Assembly (NCBI GenBank): GCA_021789895.1
Contig: JAJYIU010000005.1
Span: 75,239-139,238 of the forward strand
Reading direction: 5' to 3'
Source of the DNA: Acidobacteriota bacterium
GTDB lineage: Bacteria; Acidobacteriota; Terriglobia; Terriglobales; SCQP01
DNA length: 64,000 bases
This document shows positions 25,926 through 33,349 of this stretch, in pieces. A program made the position numbers and the translations under genes. The notes under the pieces are model-generated. The model worked only from the letters and a program-made list of their open reading frames with translations. It did not search any database and was not told the DNA's origin. Positions within the stretch are counted from its first letter, which is position 1; every line of letters starts with the position of its first letter.

Positions 25926-27176
25926 CTATTCCATCCCCGTCGAGGCGGCCTGGGCCGGCATCGTTTCCGAATAACTGTGCGGCCGCAGTTGATAGCGCTG
26001 TAATTTGTTCAGCAGCGCGCGGTAGCTGATGTTCAGCACGCGCGCGGCGCTGCTGCGGTTCCAGCGGGTTTCTTCCAGTACGCGGGCGATGGTTTCGCGC
26101 TCCAGCTCGCTTTTCGCGTTGCGCACGATGGCCTTCAAATCGCGCCCGTTGTGCGGTTCGTGCTCGGGCGCCGGCGCGAACGCCGCCGCCGCGGGCGCGG
26201 CCGCGGGCAGGCTCCGCAACTCGTGCAGCACCTCGTCGCCGAAGATGAGATAGCGCTTGATCACGTTTTCCAGCTCGCGCACATTGCCCGGCCATTCGTA
26301 ATGCGTGCACAGTTCCTGCAGTTCCGGCGAAATCGGGCGCGGCTCGCAGCCGTACTGGATGGCAAAGCGTTCGAGATTGTAAGCCAGCAGCGGCAGAATG
26401 TCTTCCTGCCGGTCGCGCAGCGGCGGCAGGGTGATCGAGAAAACGTTGAGCCGGAAAAACAGGTCTTCGCGGAAACGCTTCTCGATCAGCGCTTGGTGCA
26501 CGTTGATATTCGTCGCCGCCAGCACGCGCACGTCGGCGTACACCTCGGTGCGCCCGCCCAGCCGGGTGAAACGGTGGTCTTGCAGCACGTGCAGCAGTTT
26601 TGCCTGCAGCATGGGCGACATTTCGCCAATCTCGTCCAGCAGGATGGTGCCCTTCTGGCAGAGCTCGAATTTTCCCGGCTTGCTCCGCATCGCCCCGGTG
26701 AAGGCGCCCGGCTCGTAGCCGAACAGCTCGCTTTCCAGCAGCTCGTCGGGAAGAGCGGCGCAATTGACTTTGAGAAAGCGGTGATGGCGGCGCTCGGAAT
26801 GATGATGGATGAGGCGGGCGACGGCTTCCTTGCCGCAGCCGCTCTCGCCCAGAATGAGCACCGGCACGTCGAACTCGGCCAATTGCTGGCTGCGTTTATA
26901 AATGGCCTGCATCACCGGGCTGCGGGCGATGAACTGCCCCTCGCCTTCCAGCGGCTCGTTGATCAATGTGGCCGGGCTGGAGTCCAGCGTGTTCGGCGCC
27001 AGCGCGTGCAGCGCGCGCCCGGAGTGATGCCGCATCAGCGCTTCGCCGGCATACGCCGTCCGCATCGGGCTGGCGTCGAAGATCGGCGCGGCGCATGCGT
27101 TCGGGTTGGCAGGCTGGGCTTGCGAGCTTCCCGCAGGTCGAGAGCTGACTAAACTAAAAGAAGAGTTTGATCTCAT
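25926..27176 (-). CDS. Sigma54-dependent activator without receiver domain
   Basis: A 416-residue enhancer-binding protein. Residues 1-80 are low in complexity and hold no recognised sensor domain. The AAA+ domain (about 84-320) has Walker A 'GESGCGKE' (110-117), the sigma54 contact loop 'GAFTGA', and Walker B 'ILLDEIGEM'. The C-terminal Fis-type helix-turn-helix ends '...WNRSSAARVLNISYRALL'. It would bind upstream sites and open sigma54 promoters. ATG 27176 is chosen over 27215 because GGAG lies upstream and the extra residues are not conserved-looking. It sits between the PEP-CTERM gene and an orphan receiver, so it is a candidate regulator of exopolysaccharide/PEP-CTERM promoters. Confidence 0.9.
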   Translation of the reverse strand: MRSNSSFSLVSSRPAGSSQAQPANPNACAAPIFDASPMRTAYAGEALMRHHSGRALHALAPNTLDSSPATLINEPLEGEGQFIARSPVMQAIYKRSQQLAEFDVPVLILGESGCGKEAVARLIHHHSERRHHRFLKVNCAALPDELLESELFGYEPGAFTGAMRSKPGKFELCQKGTILLDEIGEMSPMLQAKLLHVLQDHRFTRLGGRTEVYADVRVLAATNINVHQALIEKRFREDLFFRLNVFSITLPPLRDRQEDILPLLAYNLERFAIQYGCEPRPISPELQELCTHYEWPGNVRELENVIKRYLIFGDEVLHELRSLPAAAPAAAAFAPAPEHEPHNGRDLKAIVRNAKSELERETIARVLEETRWNRSSAARVLNISYRALLNKLQRYQLRPHSYSETMPAQAASTGME

Positions 27177-27384
27177 ATGATGCTCGTTTCTCCTATACTC
27201 TGGAAGCACCGCCACGGTTTATATAGGAACATTCGTGCATTTTTGCGGCAATCCGGGAATCCCGGAAATATGCCAAAAATTTCCTGGAAACTGAAAAATT
27301 CTTGAACTTCCGGCTGCAACGCCGGGCTTGAGGTTGGAGTCTAAATCCTGTTCCGGCGGACAGTTAGCGGGTAAGGGCGGGGGC

Positions 27385-27792
27385 TTAGGAAGTGCTTTCA
27401 AAAGGCGGGGAATGCGGCTCGGACGCCAGCATCGCCTCCACCGCCGTCAACAGTTGCGAGGCAATCAGTTTCTTCGATAAAAACGCCTCCGCGCCGCATT
27501 CCAGCGCGGCAGCCTGATAATGCGGCTCGGAATGGGCGCTGCACACCAGAATCTTGCACCCGGGCCATTCCGCGTGGATGCCGCGGATGGCTTCCAGTCC
27601 GCTGTAGCCGGGCATTGCCAGATCCATGATGACCAGGTCGGGATGCCAGAGCCGGGCCAGCGCCACTGCCTCGCGCCCGTCGGAGGCTTCCCGCACTTGG
27701 TACCCGCCCGGGCTTTCTTCCAGGGTGCGCTTGGCCAATTGGCGGAAATAGCGCTCGTCATCCACGACCAGGACGTGTTTGACCGCCTTCAT
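27385..27792 (-). CDS. Single-domain response regulator (CheY-like)
   Basis: A 135-residue receiver domain alone. It has the acidic pair in 'VLVVDDERYFRQL', the phospho-acceptor Asp in 'LVIMDLAMPGYSG' and the Lys of 'FLSKKL'. No output domain is present. It lies about 210 bases upstream of the receiver-less sigma54 activator on the same strand, so it could act with it in trans; this is inference. It could also serve the stressosome-linked histidine kinase nearby. Confidence 0.9.
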   Translation of the reverse strand: MKAVKHVLVVDDERYFRQLAKRTLEESPGGYQVREASDGREAVALARLWHPDLVIMDLAMPGYSGLEAIRGIHAEWPGCKILVCSAHSEPHYQAAALECGAEAFLSKKLIASQLLTAVEAMLASEPHSPPFESTS

Positions 27793-28023: not shown

Positions 28024-28659
28024 TCAGGGTTCGATCATGCCGCGGCGGATCGCATAGCGCACCAGCCCCGCGATGGAATGGATATTGAGTTTTTCCATGA
28101 TATGGCCGCGGTGCGATTCGGCGGTTTTTACGCTGATGCCGAGCAGCGAAGCGATTTCCTTGGTGCTTTTGCCTTCGGCGACGAGTTGCAGCACCTGGCG
28201 CTCGCGCGCGCCGAGCGAATCGGGAGCGGGCTCGGCGCTGTTGAGGTAGGCGCGCACCACGGTGCCGGAAACGTCTGGGCTGAGGTACAGTCCGCCGCGC
28301 ACCGCCTCCTGCACCGCCTGTAGCAATTCGGAGGCGGATTTGGTTTTCAGCACGTACCCGCTGATGCCGGCTTGCAGCGCTTGCAGCACGTAGGGCTCTT
28401 CGATGTGCATGGTCAGCAGCACCACTCGGGTTTGAGGCGCGGAATGGATGATCTCCCGCGCCGCCTCCATGCCGTTGAGCAGCGGCATGCGCAGGTCGAG
28501 AATGGCAACCTGGGGATGCAGCGTCTGCACCAGCCGCACCGCTTCCTGGCCGTCGGCGGCTTCGCCCACGATTTCGTAGCCCGCGCGCTCGAGCAGGGCG
28601 CGAAATCCTTCGCGCACGACCTCATGATCATCGGCCAGCAGCAGGCGTGCCAGCGCCAT
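28024..28659 (-). CDS. NarL/LuxR-type response regulator at the end of the stressosome operon
   Basis: A 211-residue response regulator. The receiver (1-120) has 'LLLADDHEVVREGF', the phospho-acceptor Asp55 in 'AILDLRMPL' and 'GYVLKTKSA'. The DNA-binding domain (about 146-205) has 'LGARERQVLQLVAEGKSTKE' and 'ISVKTAESHRGHIMEKL'. ATG 28659 is supported by a GGAGGGAG site; the frame upstream belongs to the histidine kinase gene, which it overlaps by 32 bases. It is almost surely the partner of that kinase. Target genes are unknown. Confidence 0.92.
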   Translation of the reverse strand: MALARLLLADDHEVVREGFRALLERAGYEIVGEAADGQEAVRLVQTLHPQVAILDLRMPLLNGMEAAREIIHSAPQTRVVLLTMHIEEPYVLQALQAGISGYVLKTKSASELLQAVQEAVRGGLYLSPDVSGTVVRAYLNSAEPAPDSLGARERQVLQLVAEGKSTKEIASLLGISVKTAESHRGHIMEKLNIHSIAGLVRYAIRRGMIEP

Positions 28660-29587
28660 AATATTCTCCCTCCGGGGGTAGCGGTAACGATAATTGGATG
28701 GCGGTGCCGGCGCCCGGCTTGGAAGCGATTTGCATTTCCCCGCCCAATCCATGCATGCGCTCGCGCATGCCTAAAAGGCCCAGGCTGTGCGCCGCGCCCG
28801 GCTGGCGCGGATCGAACCCACATCCGTTATCTTCAATCTTAAGCTCAACCCGCCCTTGGCTCGTCTGCAATTGCAGCCGCGCCCGGGTGGCGCGGGAATG
28901 TCGCACCAGGTTGTTGAGTCCCTCCTGGGCGCAGCGGTACAGCGCCACCTCGAATGGCGGGGGCAGCCGGCGCCGCAGCCGGTCGTCCGTCTGGATCGGT
29001 ATGCCGGAGCGGGCGGCGATGCCCTGGGCAAGAAAGTCGATCGCCGGCCCCAGTCCCAGGTCGTCGAGAATCGTCGGGCGAAACTCGTGCGAGAGGCGCC
29101 GCAGTTGGCTTTCCACCGCATCCAGCATGCCCTTGATCTCGTCGAGAAAGCCGGCGGCGGTGGGCGGCAGCTCCTGGCGGGCCTGATCGACGCGGATGAA
29201 CAGGCAGGTGAGCAACTGCCCCGACTCGTCGTGCAGGGCATGGGCCAGCTTGCGCAGCTCGTCTTCCAGCCGCTGGTTGATGCCGCGCAGGGCGGCGTTG
29301 GCCTCGCTGAACCCGCTCAGCGACATTTCGAAGCTGGAAAGCGCCTCGGCCAGCAGGCGGCCGGCGGCGCGCAGCCGCTCGGTGGAAACCCCCTCGGGCG
29401 GCAGCGCCGCCAGCACCTGGTGGTGCAGCTCGATCAGCGGCAGAATGCCGCTGCCTTCCCGCAGCAGCCGGCGGCCGAGCAGGTACGCGGCATGTAGCGC
29501 GGCCTCGCTCTCGTCGCGCAAATATTTTTCCAGCGCCTGGCGGTAAAGGGCGGTGGTATCGGACTGCGGGTTCGCCAGGCTGGCCAT
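28628..29587 (-). CDS. Histidine kinase with RsbU-like N-terminal domain
   Basis: A 319-residue soluble histidine kinase. Residues 10-105 resemble the RsbU N-terminal domain, the part that RsbT binds in Bacillus: 'YRQALEKYLRDESEAALHAA', 'LGRRLLREGSGILPLIELHH' and 'ALRGINQRLEDEL'. The HisKA_3 helix follows with 'LAHALHDESGQLL' (phospho-acceptor His119). The ATPase domain has N-box 'EGLNNLVRHS', 'DNGCGFD' and 'LGLLGMRERM'. There are no membrane segments. It starts one base before the phosphatase gene's stop region on the same strand and overlaps the response regulator gene. It appears to be the output of the stressosome genes upstream. Confidence 0.88.
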   Translation of the reverse strand: MASLANPQSDTTALYRQALEKYLRDESEAALHAAYLLGRRLLREGSGILPLIELHHQVLAALPPEGVSTERLRAAGRLLAEALSSFEMSLSGFSEANAALRGINQRLEDELRKLAHALHDESGQLLTCLFIRVDQARQELPPTAAGFLDEIKGMLDAVESQLRRLSHEFRPTILDDLGLGPAIDFLAQGIAARSGIPIQTDDRLRRRLPPPFEVALYRCAQEGLNNLVRHSRATRARLQLQTSQGRVELKIEDNGCGFDPRQPGAAHSLGLLGMRERMHGLGGEMQIASKPGAGTAIQLSLPLPPEGEYYGAGTPAAGR

Positions 29588-30190
29588 TTAACTCGCTCCC
29601 TGGTAGCGGGCCACCACCAGCAGCGCATCGTCGGCGGCCGGCGCCTGCACCGCGTAGCGGCGCAGCATGGCTTGCGCTATGCGATCGAGTGCGGCGTCTT
29701 GCGGCCCGATCGGATCGGTGTACTGCATGCGTATGCCGTCCGTGTACATGATCAGCATATCCCCGGCGTGTACCGGCAGCATCGTGGCCTGCAATCGGGG
29801 CAGGTGGTGCCCCACCACGCCGGCGCGCAGCAGCAGGTGCTCGCGCTCGGCGTCGGTGCGCACCAGCATCGCTTCGATATTGCCCACCCCCATCCAGGTC
29901 ATGGTGTTTTCGCGCTCGTCGAAACTGGCCAGGCTGAGGCACAGCCCGCGGCTGCCTTGTAGCGCTCCATGGCACCGCCGGGTCAGGGCGATGACCGATT
30001 CAGCGGCTGCGTTCTGCATCAGGCTCACCGCGCGGGCGGAGGCTTCGGCGGCTTCCGGACCGTGCCCCAATCCGTCCATCACCGCTACCAGCGCGCCGCC
30101 GTGGGGATAAAAACGCACCATGCAGGCGTCGCCGGAAACGGTTTCGCCGGGGCGGGCGCGCGAGGAGCTCGCCCAATCCAGAATGGGCAT
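29588..30190 (-). CDS. RsbX/SpoIIE-type PP2C phosphatase
   Basis: A 200-residue single-domain PP2C-like phosphatase. Metal-binding motifs are 'VAVMDGLGHGPEA', 'GVGNIEAML', 'MLIMYTDGIRMQY' and the terminal 'ADDALLVVARY'. RsbX in Bacillus removes phosphate from RsbS and RsbR to reset the stressosome; this protein has the same size and place. Its ATG (30190) overlaps the rsbT stop codon as TGATG, which means translational coupling. The longer start at 30205 is rejected. It has no RsbU-type N-terminal domain, which is on the histidine kinase instead. Confidence 0.87.
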   Translation of the reverse strand: MPILDWASSSRARPGETVSGDACMVRFYPHGGALVAVMDGLGHGPEAAEASARAVSLMQNAAAESVIALTRRCHGALQGSRGLCLSLASFDERENTMTWMGVGNIEAMLVRTDAEREHLLLRAGVVGHHLPRLQATMLPVHAGDMLIMYTDGIRMQYTDPIGPQDAALDRIAQAMLRRYAVQAPAADDALLVVARYQGAS

Positions 30191-30585
30191 CAGCGTAGCT
30201 CCCACTTCACCGCCGTCACCACCGTGCCCGCGCCGTAAGTGGATTTCAACTCGAACGTGTCCATCAGGCGTTTCACCCCCGGCAGCCCCAGCCCCAGTCC
30301 GCCGGAAGTGGAAAAACCGTCCTGCAGTGCGCGTTCGATATCCACGATGCCGGGCCCCTGGTCGCGGGCGATCACCATGATCCCGCGCCGCCCGCCTTCG
30401 TTCAATAACCGCAGCTCGATTTCGCCTTCGTGCGCATATAAAAGGATGTTGCGTGCCAGTTCGGAGATGGCGGTGGCTAGAAGGGTGATATCGATGGATG
30501 AAAATCCCGCTTGCAGCCCGAGCGCGCGCCCTTTCTGGCGCGCCGCCAGAACGTCGGTATCGGCCCGGATCGGGATGTGTTCCAT
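30190..30585 (-). CDS. rsbT: RsbT-like switch kinase
   Basis: A 131-residue GHKL kinase of the RsbT type. Motifs are the N-box 'AISELARNILLYA', G1 'DQGPGI' and G2 'GGLGLGLPGVKRLMD'. In the stressosome model it is held by RsbR/RsbS, phosphorylates them on stress, and is then freed to bind an RsbU-type domain. ATG 30585 lies one base after the rsbS stop codon (TAGCATG), which supports coupled reading; a GTG nine bases upstream is possible. The cognate RsbU-like domain seems to be on the histidine kinase two genes downstream. Confidence 0.9.
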   Translation of the reverse strand: MEHIPIRADTDVLAARQKGRALGLQAGFSSIDITLLATAISELARNILLYAHEGEIELRLLNEGGRRGIMVIARDQGPGIVDIERALQDGFSTSGGLGLGLPGVKRLMDTFELKSTYGAGTVVTAVKWELR

Positions 30586-30586
30586 G

Positions 30587-31009
30587 CTAGCCACGGGGAT
30601 GGAGCAAATTGCGCGGGCCGGCGCTTTGGCGCGGGCGGCTGCCCAGGGCTTTCACGCTGCGCTGCTTGCGATCCAGATAGGCCAGCCCTTCTTCTAAATC
30701 CAGCGCCGTGGTCACGCCTTCCAGCGAAAGCCCGAGTTGCACCATGGCGAAGGCCAGGTCGGCATGAATGCCGACGATTACGGTTTCCGCGCCGCGGAAC
30801 CCGGTCATATGGGCGATATCCCGTAAAGTGCGGCAGGCGAAGGAGTCGAGCACGTCCACGGCGGTGACATCCACGATCAGTCCGCGCGAACGGTAGCGGC
30901 CCACCTGCTCCACCAGCGTGCGCCGTAACTGCGCCAGATCGGCGTCGGTCAGGGCGGATTGCACGGTGGCAATCAGATATGGCCCCTGTTTCAGGACAGG
31001 GACATCCAC
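30587..31009 (-). CDS. rsbS: RsbS-like STAS protein of the stressosome core
   Basis: A 140-residue single STAS domain. It has the core motif 'GLIVDVTAVDVLDSFACRTL' with Ser56 at the place of the serine that RsbT phosphorylates in Bacillus RsbS. The C-terminal 20 residues are an Arg/Pro-rich tail beyond the usual length. RsbS and RsbR form the stressosome scaffold that holds RsbT. It starts 22 bases after rsbR. Confidence 0.9.
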   Translation of the reverse strand: MDVPVLKQGPYLIATVQSALTDADLAQLRRTLVEQVGRYRSRGLIVDVTAVDVLDSFACRTLRDIAHMTGFRGAETVIVGIHADLAFAMVQLGLSLEGVTTALDLEEGLAYLDRKQRSVKALGSRPRQSAGPRNLLHPRG

Positions 31010-31031
31010 TTCAGCTCCTTTCGGACGCGGC

Positions 31032-31952
31032 TCAGGCCTCGGGGGTCTCGCCCGCGAAGTGCACGACTTTGTATCCGAGCAGGCGTTCCGCTTCCTCGAT
31101 GCCGCCTTGCAAGTCGCCCACCGTGGTCATCTTGCCGAGATCAACGCCGATGGTCACCAGCGTCTGGGCGATTTCGGGTGAAAGGCCGGTGACGATCACG
31201 GTGGCGCCGAGCAGGCGCGAGGCTTCCACCGTCTGCACCAGGTGGTTGGCGACCGTGGCGTCCATCGCGGCCACGCCGGTGATGTCAATCACCACCACCT
31301 TGGCGCGGTTGGTGCGGATGCCGCGCAGCAGCTGCTCGGTGAGCTGGCGCGCCCGCTGCGGATCGATCACCCCGATGATCGGCAGAATCAGCAGTCGCTC
31401 GCGCACCTGCAAGACCGGGGTGGAAAGCTCGCGAATGGCCTCTTGCTGCTCGCGGATGATGCGCTCGCGCTCCTGCACGAAGCCGACGGCGACGGTGTTG
31501 GCAATGCGGTTGGCCGCGGGTTCGTAGGCGTCCAGAATTCGGTTCAGCTTGGTGAAATCGCCTTGATATTTGGCGAAGAGCGAGCGCGCCAGCACGTCGC
31601 GCAGCAGCAGCACGATGCCGACCACCTCGTGGGTTTCGACGCCGCGCGGAATGATGCGCTCCGAGAGGTTGCGCGCATAGGCCTGCAGGGCCTCGAACGT
31701 GCCGGTTTCCAGCGCTTCCACGTAGTTGTCGTACACCGACGTGGCTTCGGCGAAGATTTCTTCTTTCGTCATCGCCGTCAGCAATTCCGCTTCGGTGATG
31801 CGGCGCGCCCACTCTTCGCGCAACTGGGTGCGGTTCTGGCGAAGGTGCGCCACTAGTTCGCGCAGCAGCGACGTAGTGGATTCGGAGCCGATCGCGATCT
31901 TCGCTGGAAGGGGTGCGGATGCCGGAGCGGCCGGGCCTTTAGAACCTTTCAT
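31032..31952 (-). CDS. rsbR: RsbR-like stressosome protein
   Basis: A 306-residue protein with a helical N-terminal sensor domain (about 25-165, 'LRELVAHLRQNRTQLREEWA') and a C-terminal STAS domain (about 188-300). In Bacillus RsbR two threonines in the STAS domain are phosphorylated. The matching places here look like Pro198 ('GVIDPQRA') and Ala232 ('MDATVANHL'), with Thr233 next door; this alignment is from memory. ATG 31952 has a strong GGAGG site; the frame to 31997 is rejected. It heads the operon rsbR-rsbS-rsbT-phosphatase-histidine kinase-regulator. Confidence 0.9.
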   Translation of the reverse strand: MKGSKGPAAPASAPLPAKIAIGSESTTSLLRELVAHLRQNRTQLREEWARRITEAELLTAMTKEEIFAEATSVYDNYVEALETGTFEALQAYARNLSERIIPRGVETHEVVGIVLLLRDVLARSLFAKYQGDFTKLNRILDAYEPAANRIANTVAVGFVQERERIIREQQEAIRELSTPVLQVRERLLILPIIGVIDPQRARQLTEQLLRGIRTNRAKVVVIDITGVAAMDATVANHLVQTVEASRLLGATVIVTGLSPEIAQTLVTIGVDLGKMTTVGDLQGGIEEAERLLGYKVVHFAGETPEA

Positions 31953-32001: not shown

Positions 32002-32030
32002 AAATTACGCGGTAATTCAGAATAGTCTAA
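32002..32030 (-). promoter_or_regulatory. Candidate promoter of the stressosome operon with palindrome in the spacer
   Basis: On the minus strand TTAGAC (32025-32030) and TAATTT (32002-32007) are 17 bases apart, giving a start near 31995 and a leader of about 43 bases. A dyad AATTAC-N3-GTAATT (32003-32017) overlaps the -10, so a repressor could act there. Confidence 0.35.
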
Positions 32031-32228
32031 GCGCTCGTCTGCTTGTCAAGCCGGGACCGCTTTTTTCCCTCGCCGGCCAAAGTATGGGGAAAACGCCGGA
32101 AAAAACACCGACGTAAGCCGGTGATAGCTGGCCGGATCGTAAAAAGCTGCGCAGAGAGGGAAAAAGCCTGCGGCTTTGCAATCCCGAAAAACCCGGACTG
32201 CCGGTTCAGGGTTTCTCCGCATGACTTT

Positions 32229-32245
32229 TGGCAGCGTAAGTGCAC
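32229..32245 (+). promoter_or_regulatory. Sigma54 (-24/-12) promoter of the export operon
   Basis: TTGGCAGCGTAAGTGCA has GG (32230-32231) and GC (32242-32243) ten bases apart and matches the sigma54 consensus well. The start site would be near 32255, just before ATG 32261. This rules out the upstream GTG at 32240 as a start codon and implies a nearly leaderless message. Confidence 0.65.
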
Positions 32246-32260
32246 TTTCTTGGCTCAGTT

Positions 32261-33349
32261 ATGAAAGCTCCCGAATGGCCTGCCCTGCCCAGCCTGCTCA
32301 ACCCGCCCGGCGCTCCGGACAATGGCGATGAGGCGACCCCGCCGGAAGACGTGATCTTCGGCGTCAGCCCCGCCATGCAGCAGGTCCGCACGCGCCTGGA
32401 ACGGATTGCGCCCACCAATATCCCCATTCTGATCACCGGCGAAAGCGGCACCGGCAAAGAGGTCATCGCGCGCTTGATTCATCGGCGTTCGAATTGGGCC
32501 TCCGGTCCGCTGGTGAAAGTGAACTGCCCGGCGATTCCCGGCAGCCTGCTGGAAAGCGAGCTGTTCGGCTATGAGAAAGGCGCCTTTACCGGCGCCAATC
32601 TCAGCAAGCCGGGCCGGGTGGAGCTGGCCCATGAAGGCACGCTGTTTCTGGATGAAATCGGCGAGCTCGATCCGGGGTTGCAATCCAAGCTGCTGCAGTT
32701 GCTCCAGGAAAACTGCTTCATGCGCCTGGGCGCGCAGCAGGAAAGCCGGGTGCACATGCGCTTCCTCTGCGCCACCAATCGCCACCTCGAGGCCGAGGTG
32801 GAGGCGGGCCGCTTTCGCCAGGACCTCTATTACCGCATCAACGTGGTCAGCCTTTCGCTGCCGCCGCTGCGCGAGCGCGCGCAGGATATCCCCGTGCTGG
32901 TGGATTACTTCCTGCGCCAGTTTTCCGCCCGCTATGAGCGCCCCCTGGAGCCGCTGACCCCTGCCCAGATGGCCATGCTGCGCGCCTACGGCTGGCCCGG
33001 CAATCTCCGCGAGCTGGAAAACCAGATCAAAAGCTATGTGGTGTTGGGCACGCTGCAGCGCGTGGAGAACGAGTCGCCTCACCGCTCCGCCGACGCCGGC
33101 GCGCGCCTCGCCGGTGAGATCAGCCCGGATGGCTCGTTTCCGCTGAAAAACGTCACTCGTCAGGCCATCCATGAGATGGAGCGCGAAATCATCCTGAAGG
33201 TACTGGAAGCGAATCAATGGAACCGCAAGCAGACTGCCCAGGTCTTACGCATCAGTTATCGCGCCTTGCTCTACAAGCTCAAGGAAGCCGGCATCACCCG
33301 CCGGCGCGGCTCGCTGGCGGTGCAGTCGCCCAGCGAGCCGGCGGCATGA
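32261..33349 (+). CDS. Sigma54-dependent activator heading the polysaccharide export operon
   Basis: A 362-residue enhancer-binding protein without a receiver domain. After about 30 unremarkable residues comes the AAA+ domain with Walker A 'GESGTGKE' (60-67), the sigma54 loop 'GAFTGA', and Walker B 'TLFLDEIGEL'. The Fis-type C-terminus is '...WNRKQTAQVLRISYRALL', nearly the same recognition helix as the activator at 25926-27176. It overlaps the wza-like gene by four bases (ATGA), so it is part of the operon it probably controls. Its own promoter is sigma54-type, which suggests autoregulation or control by the other activator. Confidence 0.92.
   Translation: MKAPEWPALPSLLNPPGAPDNGDEATPPEDVIFGVSPAMQQVRTRLERIAPTNIPILITGESGTGKEVIARLIHRRSNWASGPLVKVNCPAIPGSLLESELFGYEKGAFTGANLSKPGRVELAHEGTLFLDEIGELDPGLQSKLLQLLQENCFMRLGAQQESRVHMRFLCATNRHLEAEVEAGRFRQDLYYRINVVSLSLPPLRERAQDIPVLVDYFLRQFSARYERPLEPLTPAQMAMLRAYGWPGNLRELENQIKSYVVLGTLQRVENESPHRSADAGARLAGEISPDGSFPLKNVTRQAIHEMEREIILKVLEANQWNRKQTAQVLRISYRALLYKLKEAGITRRRGSLAVQSPSEPAA

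Follow-up and report, generated by a model that had tools for sequence, protein, structure and literature searches.

A 64,000-nucleotide stretch of a genome from the Acidobacteriota (Terriglobales; assembly GCA_021789895.1, a draft of 79 contigs; contig JAJYIU010000005.1, positions 75,239 to 139,238; hereafter the window) contains, on its minus strand from 31952 to 28024, an operon in which the genes for the stressosome proteins RsbR, RsbS and RsbT are followed by genes for a PP2C phosphatase, a histidine kinase and a NarL-type response regulator, all six tightly packed and placed as an earlier note on this DNA had described them. The kinase bears an N-terminal RsbU_N domain, and across the phylum RsbU_N proteins and true RsbT co-occur almost perfectly and are encoded side by side; the best-supported reading is therefore that RsbT docks on the RsbU_N domain of the kinase and switches it, which would make the operon an rsbRSTX stressosome whose output is a two-component system, and we consider this reading probable.

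The arrangement and its explanation have already been published for Proteobacteria, and the window is a further case in an additional phylum. RsbU_N has been found on proteins encoded downstream of rsbRSTX in Proteobacteria (Heinz 2022, PMC9237108); a later study, in which the linker mechanism was shown for RsbU itself, named RsbU_N histidine kinases in rsbT operons, proposed a mechanism by which RsbT switches them, and gave an AlphaFold model of the RsbU_N-NreB kinase MBI3545564.1 (eLife 2025, PMC12143880). The wiring from RsbT to the kinase that the earlier note had proposed is strongly supported by comparative genomics, but the "domain transplant" that it offered as a new explanation had been described in both of these studies. 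In the literature searched, stressosomes and Acidobacteria were found together only in a blue-light review. The view of RsbU_N as a portable docking site for RsbT, already in print, extends to this further phylum, where it is near-universal among true RsbT operons.

The kinase, the stressosome core and the phosphatase

The first ~105 residues of the kinase, which the earlier note had likened to the N-terminal domain of RsbU, contain a match to the Pfam profile RsbU_N (PF08673) at residues 15-88 with a score of 44.1 bits (E 2e-11), far above the curated cut-off of 25.5 bits; a genome-wide search, in which the match scored 47.4 bits, found this to be the single RsbU_N domain of the whole genome. 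The earlier note had named the lack of a significant RsbU_N match as grounds for refutation, and the domain call passes on this count. The kinase is a soluble protein of the HisKA_3 (NarX/NreB/DesK) type, with HisKA_3 at residues 110-173, HATPase_c at 214-304 and a NarL-type regulator gene adjoining; the HisKA_3 match spans His119, the phosphoacceptor candidate named earlier. No input domain besides RsbU_N was recognised by Pfam, which suggests that RsbT would be the main input of the kinase, and small soluble kinases of this kind, with no other recognised input domain, offer a direct test ground for the control of a histidine kinase by RsbT.

The sequence of the window kinase alone matches RsbU in the Protein Data Bank (PDB) weakly, and a profile built from the N-termini of 12 Acidobacteriota kinases has the four B. 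subtilis RsbU entries (E 1.5e-8 to 5e-7) as its sole significant matches; with a 25-sequence profile, which includes Pseudomonadota proteins chosen by the Pfam model, the E-value for RsbU is 1.9e-16. The N-terminus is modelled by AlphaFold as four helices (predicted local distance difference test, pLDDT, 92.5), of which the last is predicted as one continuous helix over residues 69-117, extending up to the phosphoacceptor.

RsbR consists of an N-terminal sensor and a C-terminal STAS domain, with Listeria RsbR as its best PDB match (E 2.6e-35) and a Thr present in the ELSTPV linker. The second RsbR phosphosite (position of B. subtilis Thr205, after Asp231; window 31257-31262) is occupied by Ala in the window protein, with Ser, Thr, Asn or Ala found in its orthologues, so that phosphorylation control there would differ or be shifted by one residue. 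The DSF motif of RsbS is kept in 12 of 12 orthologues and the ATP-site residues of RsbT are invariant in the orthologue alignment; by similarity of sequence and fold, these proteins may assemble into a megadalton stressosome core that would release RsbT under stress. In the alignment of orthologues, the conservation of RsbR far exceeds that of the remainder of the operon: its sensor domain, all-helical in an AlphaFold model and with weak matches to globin sensors, is 81-98% identical across eleven RsbU_N operons, whereas most kinases, the nearest relative apart, share ~37-46% identity. Because it is usually in the sensor domain that RsbR proteins vary, this near-invariance points to a conserved signal that is likely common to these proteins.

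The PP2C protein has a SpoIIE/PP2C domain only (Pfam) and matches PDB entries 3zt9, deposited as a SpoIIE-type protein (E 9.5e-20), and 3w40, an RsbX structure (E 1.6e-12). Its gene stands directly after rsbT, the same position as in the RSTX modules of Proteobacteria, in which the single-domain PP2C protein is RsbX rather than RsbU (Heinz 2022, PMC9237108). The PP2C protein is thus most likely an RsbX-type reset phosphatase, and the lack of RsbU_N, to which the earlier note had drawn attention, is expected of such a protein. The role of RsbX is to reset RsbR and RsbS. The operon contains none of the sigma-B partner-switching output (RsbU phosphatase, RsbV, RsbW, SigB), which agrees with the earlier report of no anti-sigma or sigma-B gene in it; genome-wide, no sigma-B/F/G factor exceeded the cut-off (best 133 bits vs a cut-off of 234), but an rsbV/rsbW-like pair is found on a separate contig, C74.

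With the sigma-B stressosome of B. subtilis the window shares RsbR, RsbS, RsbT, RsbX and the RsbU_N target domain; it differs in that RsbU_N is on a histidine kinase, that RsbU and RsbV/RsbW/SigB are missing from the operon, and that rsbX directly follows rsbT. The proteobacterial systems have the same RSTX order followed by an RsbU_N effector, including kinase effectors for which RsbT docking has been proposed (PMC9237108, PMC12143880); they belong to another phylum, and the set of Heinz 2022 was chosen for globin-coupled RsbR, whereas no conserved haem-ligand His is visible in RsbR of the window. Vibrio vulnificus RSTX-D1-D2 likewise joins an RSTX module to a downstream two-component module without SigB, but its kinase VvD1 lacks RsbU_N. 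In Moorella thermoacetica RsbU_N is also on a non-phosphatase effector under RsbT, an RsbU_N-GAF-GGDEF protein whose output is cyclic di-GMP rather than the proposed two-component phosphotransfer of the window (Quin 2012, as cited in PMC12143880).

Linkage of rsbT and RsbU_N in Acidobacteriota

The distribution of both proteins was surveyed in 396 Acidobacteriota genomes, with domain calls in the other genomes made from draft contigs and starts chosen mechanically; true RsbT, at 193 bits or more in the RsbT profile, was set apart from an RsbT-like class and from RsbW-like proteins. True RsbT gave 18 matches in 17 genomes (the extra one, in genome G019, stands alone at locus L166), RsbU_N occurs in 15 genomes, and 14 genomes have both (p 5e-22, uncorrected for relatedness). 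In all 14 an RsbU_N protein adjoins rsbT, and it is mostly a kinase with a NarL-type regulator. In the three genomes that have true RsbT but no RsbU_N, rsbT lies within ~600 bases of a contig end. A related order holds six further RsbU_N proteins, all in or beside rsbT operons. The distribution is patchy, because RsbU_N is absent from the other sampled genomes of the window's own order. The closest named relative, locus L017, has an identical gene order and a kinase of 75% identity. Four loci from the kinase search (L033, L047, L062 and L064) were rejected as stressosome loci: no stressosome genes were recognised in them, and the genomes of L033 and L062 lack RsbU_N.

RsbU_N is found beside rsbT on effectors of many types (HisKA_3, HisKA, hybrid kinases, GGDEF, HD and sigma-54 activators), which fits a docking module. 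Most of these effectors have the architecture RsbU_N-HisKA_3-HATPase, and a NarL-type regulator is encoded next to them. At L103 an RsbU_N-HisKA protein is accompanied by a receiver protein, and L102 and L105 encode RsbU_N-PAS-GAF-HisKA-HATPase-REC and RsbU_N-PAS-PAS-HisKA_3, respectively. In two other sampled phyla RsbU_N is on kinases, GGDEF and HD proteins.

Probable switching of the kinase by RsbT and its alternatives

By analogy with B. subtilis and Moorella, from which core assembly, RsbT release, RsbT binding to RsbU_N and the sign of the effect are drawn, RsbR and RsbS would make the core and hold RsbT; upon stress, RsbT would phosphorylate the core and depart, and free RsbT would dock on RsbU_N and the linker helix of the kinase dimer. 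Docking would shift the balance of kinase activity, most likely toward more autophosphorylation of His119, the NarL-type regulator would then be phosphorylated and act on transcription, and RsbX would reset the system by dephosphorylating the core. What was counted in favour of this mechanism is partly observed in gene content, domain identities and the rsbT-RsbU_N linkage, namely RsbU_N on the kinase, a profile that matches only RsbU in the PDB and the co-occurrence with rsbT, and further the invariance of Glu28, the class of RsbT-like/kinase fusions described below and the published mechanism (PMC12143880); the unbroken linker helix belongs to a predicted model.

Several observations weigh against the same mechanism. 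The N-terminal model had no significant match in a Foldseek search of the PDB (RsbU 2j6z ranked 45th, E 1.6), so that the identification of RsbU_N rests on sequence profiles. Residues reported as important for binding are Glu24, Tyr28, Ile74 and Ile78 of RsbU and Arg19, Arg23 and Asn24 of RsbT (PMC12143880); the counterpart of Glu24 in the kinase is Glu28, which is kept in 25 of 25 sequences, whereas, as mapped by eye, Tyr28 is replaced by His32 in the window kinase and Ile74/Ile78 by Ala/Ser. RsbT Asp92 is not conserved, and Arg19 and Arg23, although invariant in true RsbT, are also kept in most RsbTs from operons without RsbU_N, for which reason the contact residues were rejected as a discriminating test. 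RsbT residues are numbered as in B. subtilis RsbT, a numbering checked against the residue numbers in PMC12143880 only. Three RsbU_N proteins have no recognised rsbT alongside (L110, L111, itself below the cut-off, and L222). RsbT showed no interaction with the Vibrio kinase VvD1, but VvD1 is without RsbU_N (Heinz 2022, PMC9237108).

These non-conserved contacts, the three proteins without rsbT alongside and the fact that RsbU_N is itself a dimerisation domain (PMC12143880) would suit a kinase merely co-expressed with the stressosome, whose RsbU_N serves dimerisation only or binds another partner; we regard this as unlikely given the near-perfect co-occurrence and adjacency of RsbU_N with rsbT over so many effector types. 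RsbT, itself a protein kinase whose ATP site is intact, might control the histidine kinase through serine/threonine phosphorylation instead of allosteric docking, a route that Heinz et al. put forward for effectors devoid of RsbU_N (PMC9237108); this appears somewhat less likely still, because that proposal concerned effectors lacking the known docking domain that the window kinase has. The least probable alternative, to which we give very little weight, takes the PP2C phosphatase for the output of the operon, acting as a substitute for RsbU on the rsbV/rsbW-like pair of contig C74, with the kinase and regulator forming a separate system: the phosphatase is RsbX-like, lacks RsbU_N and is in the RSTX position, no sigma-B-type factor exceeds the cut-off, and the presence of kinase and regulator in the operon is conserved.

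One of the RsbU_N kinases without rsbT nearby (L110:7202-8227) is accompanied by a regulator; its genome, G092, encodes a complete stressosome at another place, which makes this kinase a candidate for control in trans.

Further effectors, a second operon class and the surroundings of the operon

Downstream of rsbR-S-T-X and a second RsbT, two loci encode RsbU_N-GAF-sigma54-HTH (helix-turn-helix) proteins (L108:4068-5909 and L219:4457-6460), and there the stressosome apparently drives a sigma-54 activator directly; the RsbR sensor domain of L108 is divergent (19% identity), and this type of activator is not in the figure legend of Heinz 2022 (PMC9237108). A second operon class (L167, L192-L200) consists of rsbR-rsbS-rsbT, an RsbT-like/RsbX fusion, an RsbT-like-HisKA-HATPase-REC protein and a receiver-kinase protein, and occurs in relatives from the window's own order as well as in other families; its loci carry no RsbU_N. 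It may represent a distinct wiring, in which RsbT-type domains are linked to histidine kinases by fusion; no description of it was found in the literature searched, which does not prove its absence. RsbU_N on sigma-54 activators, this fusion class and the almost invariant RsbR sensor are possibly new. A tentative generalisation, which we think possible although rather short of probable, is that in Acidobacteriota a near-invariant RsbR sensor feeds interchangeable outputs through an RsbU_N plug. These would be kinases of the HisKA_3, HisKA and hybrid types and, where the RsbR sensor is a different one, directly a sigma-54 activator; in the second class the RsbT-like/kinase fusion would do the same. 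In this view the stressosome would be an all-purpose front end for the control of two-component systems and sigma-54 activators, with no partner switching involved.

Two tandem RsbU_N proteins after rsbT, for example an HD or GGDEF protein and then a PAS hybrid kinase, are a frequent arrangement at loci sampled from Pseudomonadota (L157, L159, L162), so that one RsbT may serve two outputs. A stand-alone RsbU_N protein of 103 residues (L215:6905-7216) lies beside an operon of rsbT, RsbU_N kinase and regulator and might compete for RsbT.

The features of the window operon are collected in Table 1. The start of rsbR, ATG 31952, agrees with that of its orthologue at L017; rsbS and rsbT overlap by 8 bases and rsbT and the PP2C gene by 16, the kinase ATG directly follows the PP2C stop codon, and the regulator probably starts at ATG 28659, with an overlap of 32 bases with the kinase gene. 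The upstream palindrome was rejected as a regulon site, its extended form being a single copy in the genome, as were upstream motifs common to the families as a site for the regulator: the 8-10-mers were barely above shuffles and look GC-rich or Shine-Dalgarno-like.

Table 1. Features of the stressosome operon and its upstream region (window coordinates).
Feature	Position	Strand	Basis or remarks
rsbR	31032..31952	-	Helical N-terminal sensor domain and STAS domain; Pfam STAS
rsbS	30587..31009	-	One STAS domain, DSF serine motif; Pfam STAS
rsbT, switch kinase	30190..30594	-	HATPase_c_2
rsbX-like PP2C feedback phosphatase	29588..30205	-	SpoIIE domain
Histidine kinase with N-terminal RsbU_N	28628..29587	-	Pfam domains
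RsbU_N domain (kinase residues 15-88), presumed RsbT docking site	29324..29545	-	Pfam PF08673
Predicted long helix, kinase residues 69-117/118 (RsbU_N end and linker up to His119)	29234..29383	-	AlphaFold2 model, pLDDT above 90
His119 codon, phosphoacceptor candidate	29231..29233	-	HisKA_3 match 110-173 and position
NarL-type response regulator (receiver and GerE HTH)	28024..28659	-	Pfam Response_reg, GerE
Tentative promoter TTGACA - 19 bases - TATTCT, upstream of rsbR	32019..32049	-	Sequence; kept in L017 upstream region (alignment)
Palindrome ATTACCGCGTAAT between presumed promoter and rsbR	32004..32016	-	Conserved in L017

Downstream of the operon, a receiver protein standing alone (27385-27792) has counterparts in the same place in L017 (74%) and L100 (51%) and is a possible second target of the kinase. 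The operon is flanked by genes for two sigma-54 activators that have no receiver domain, at 25926-27215 and 32240-33349.

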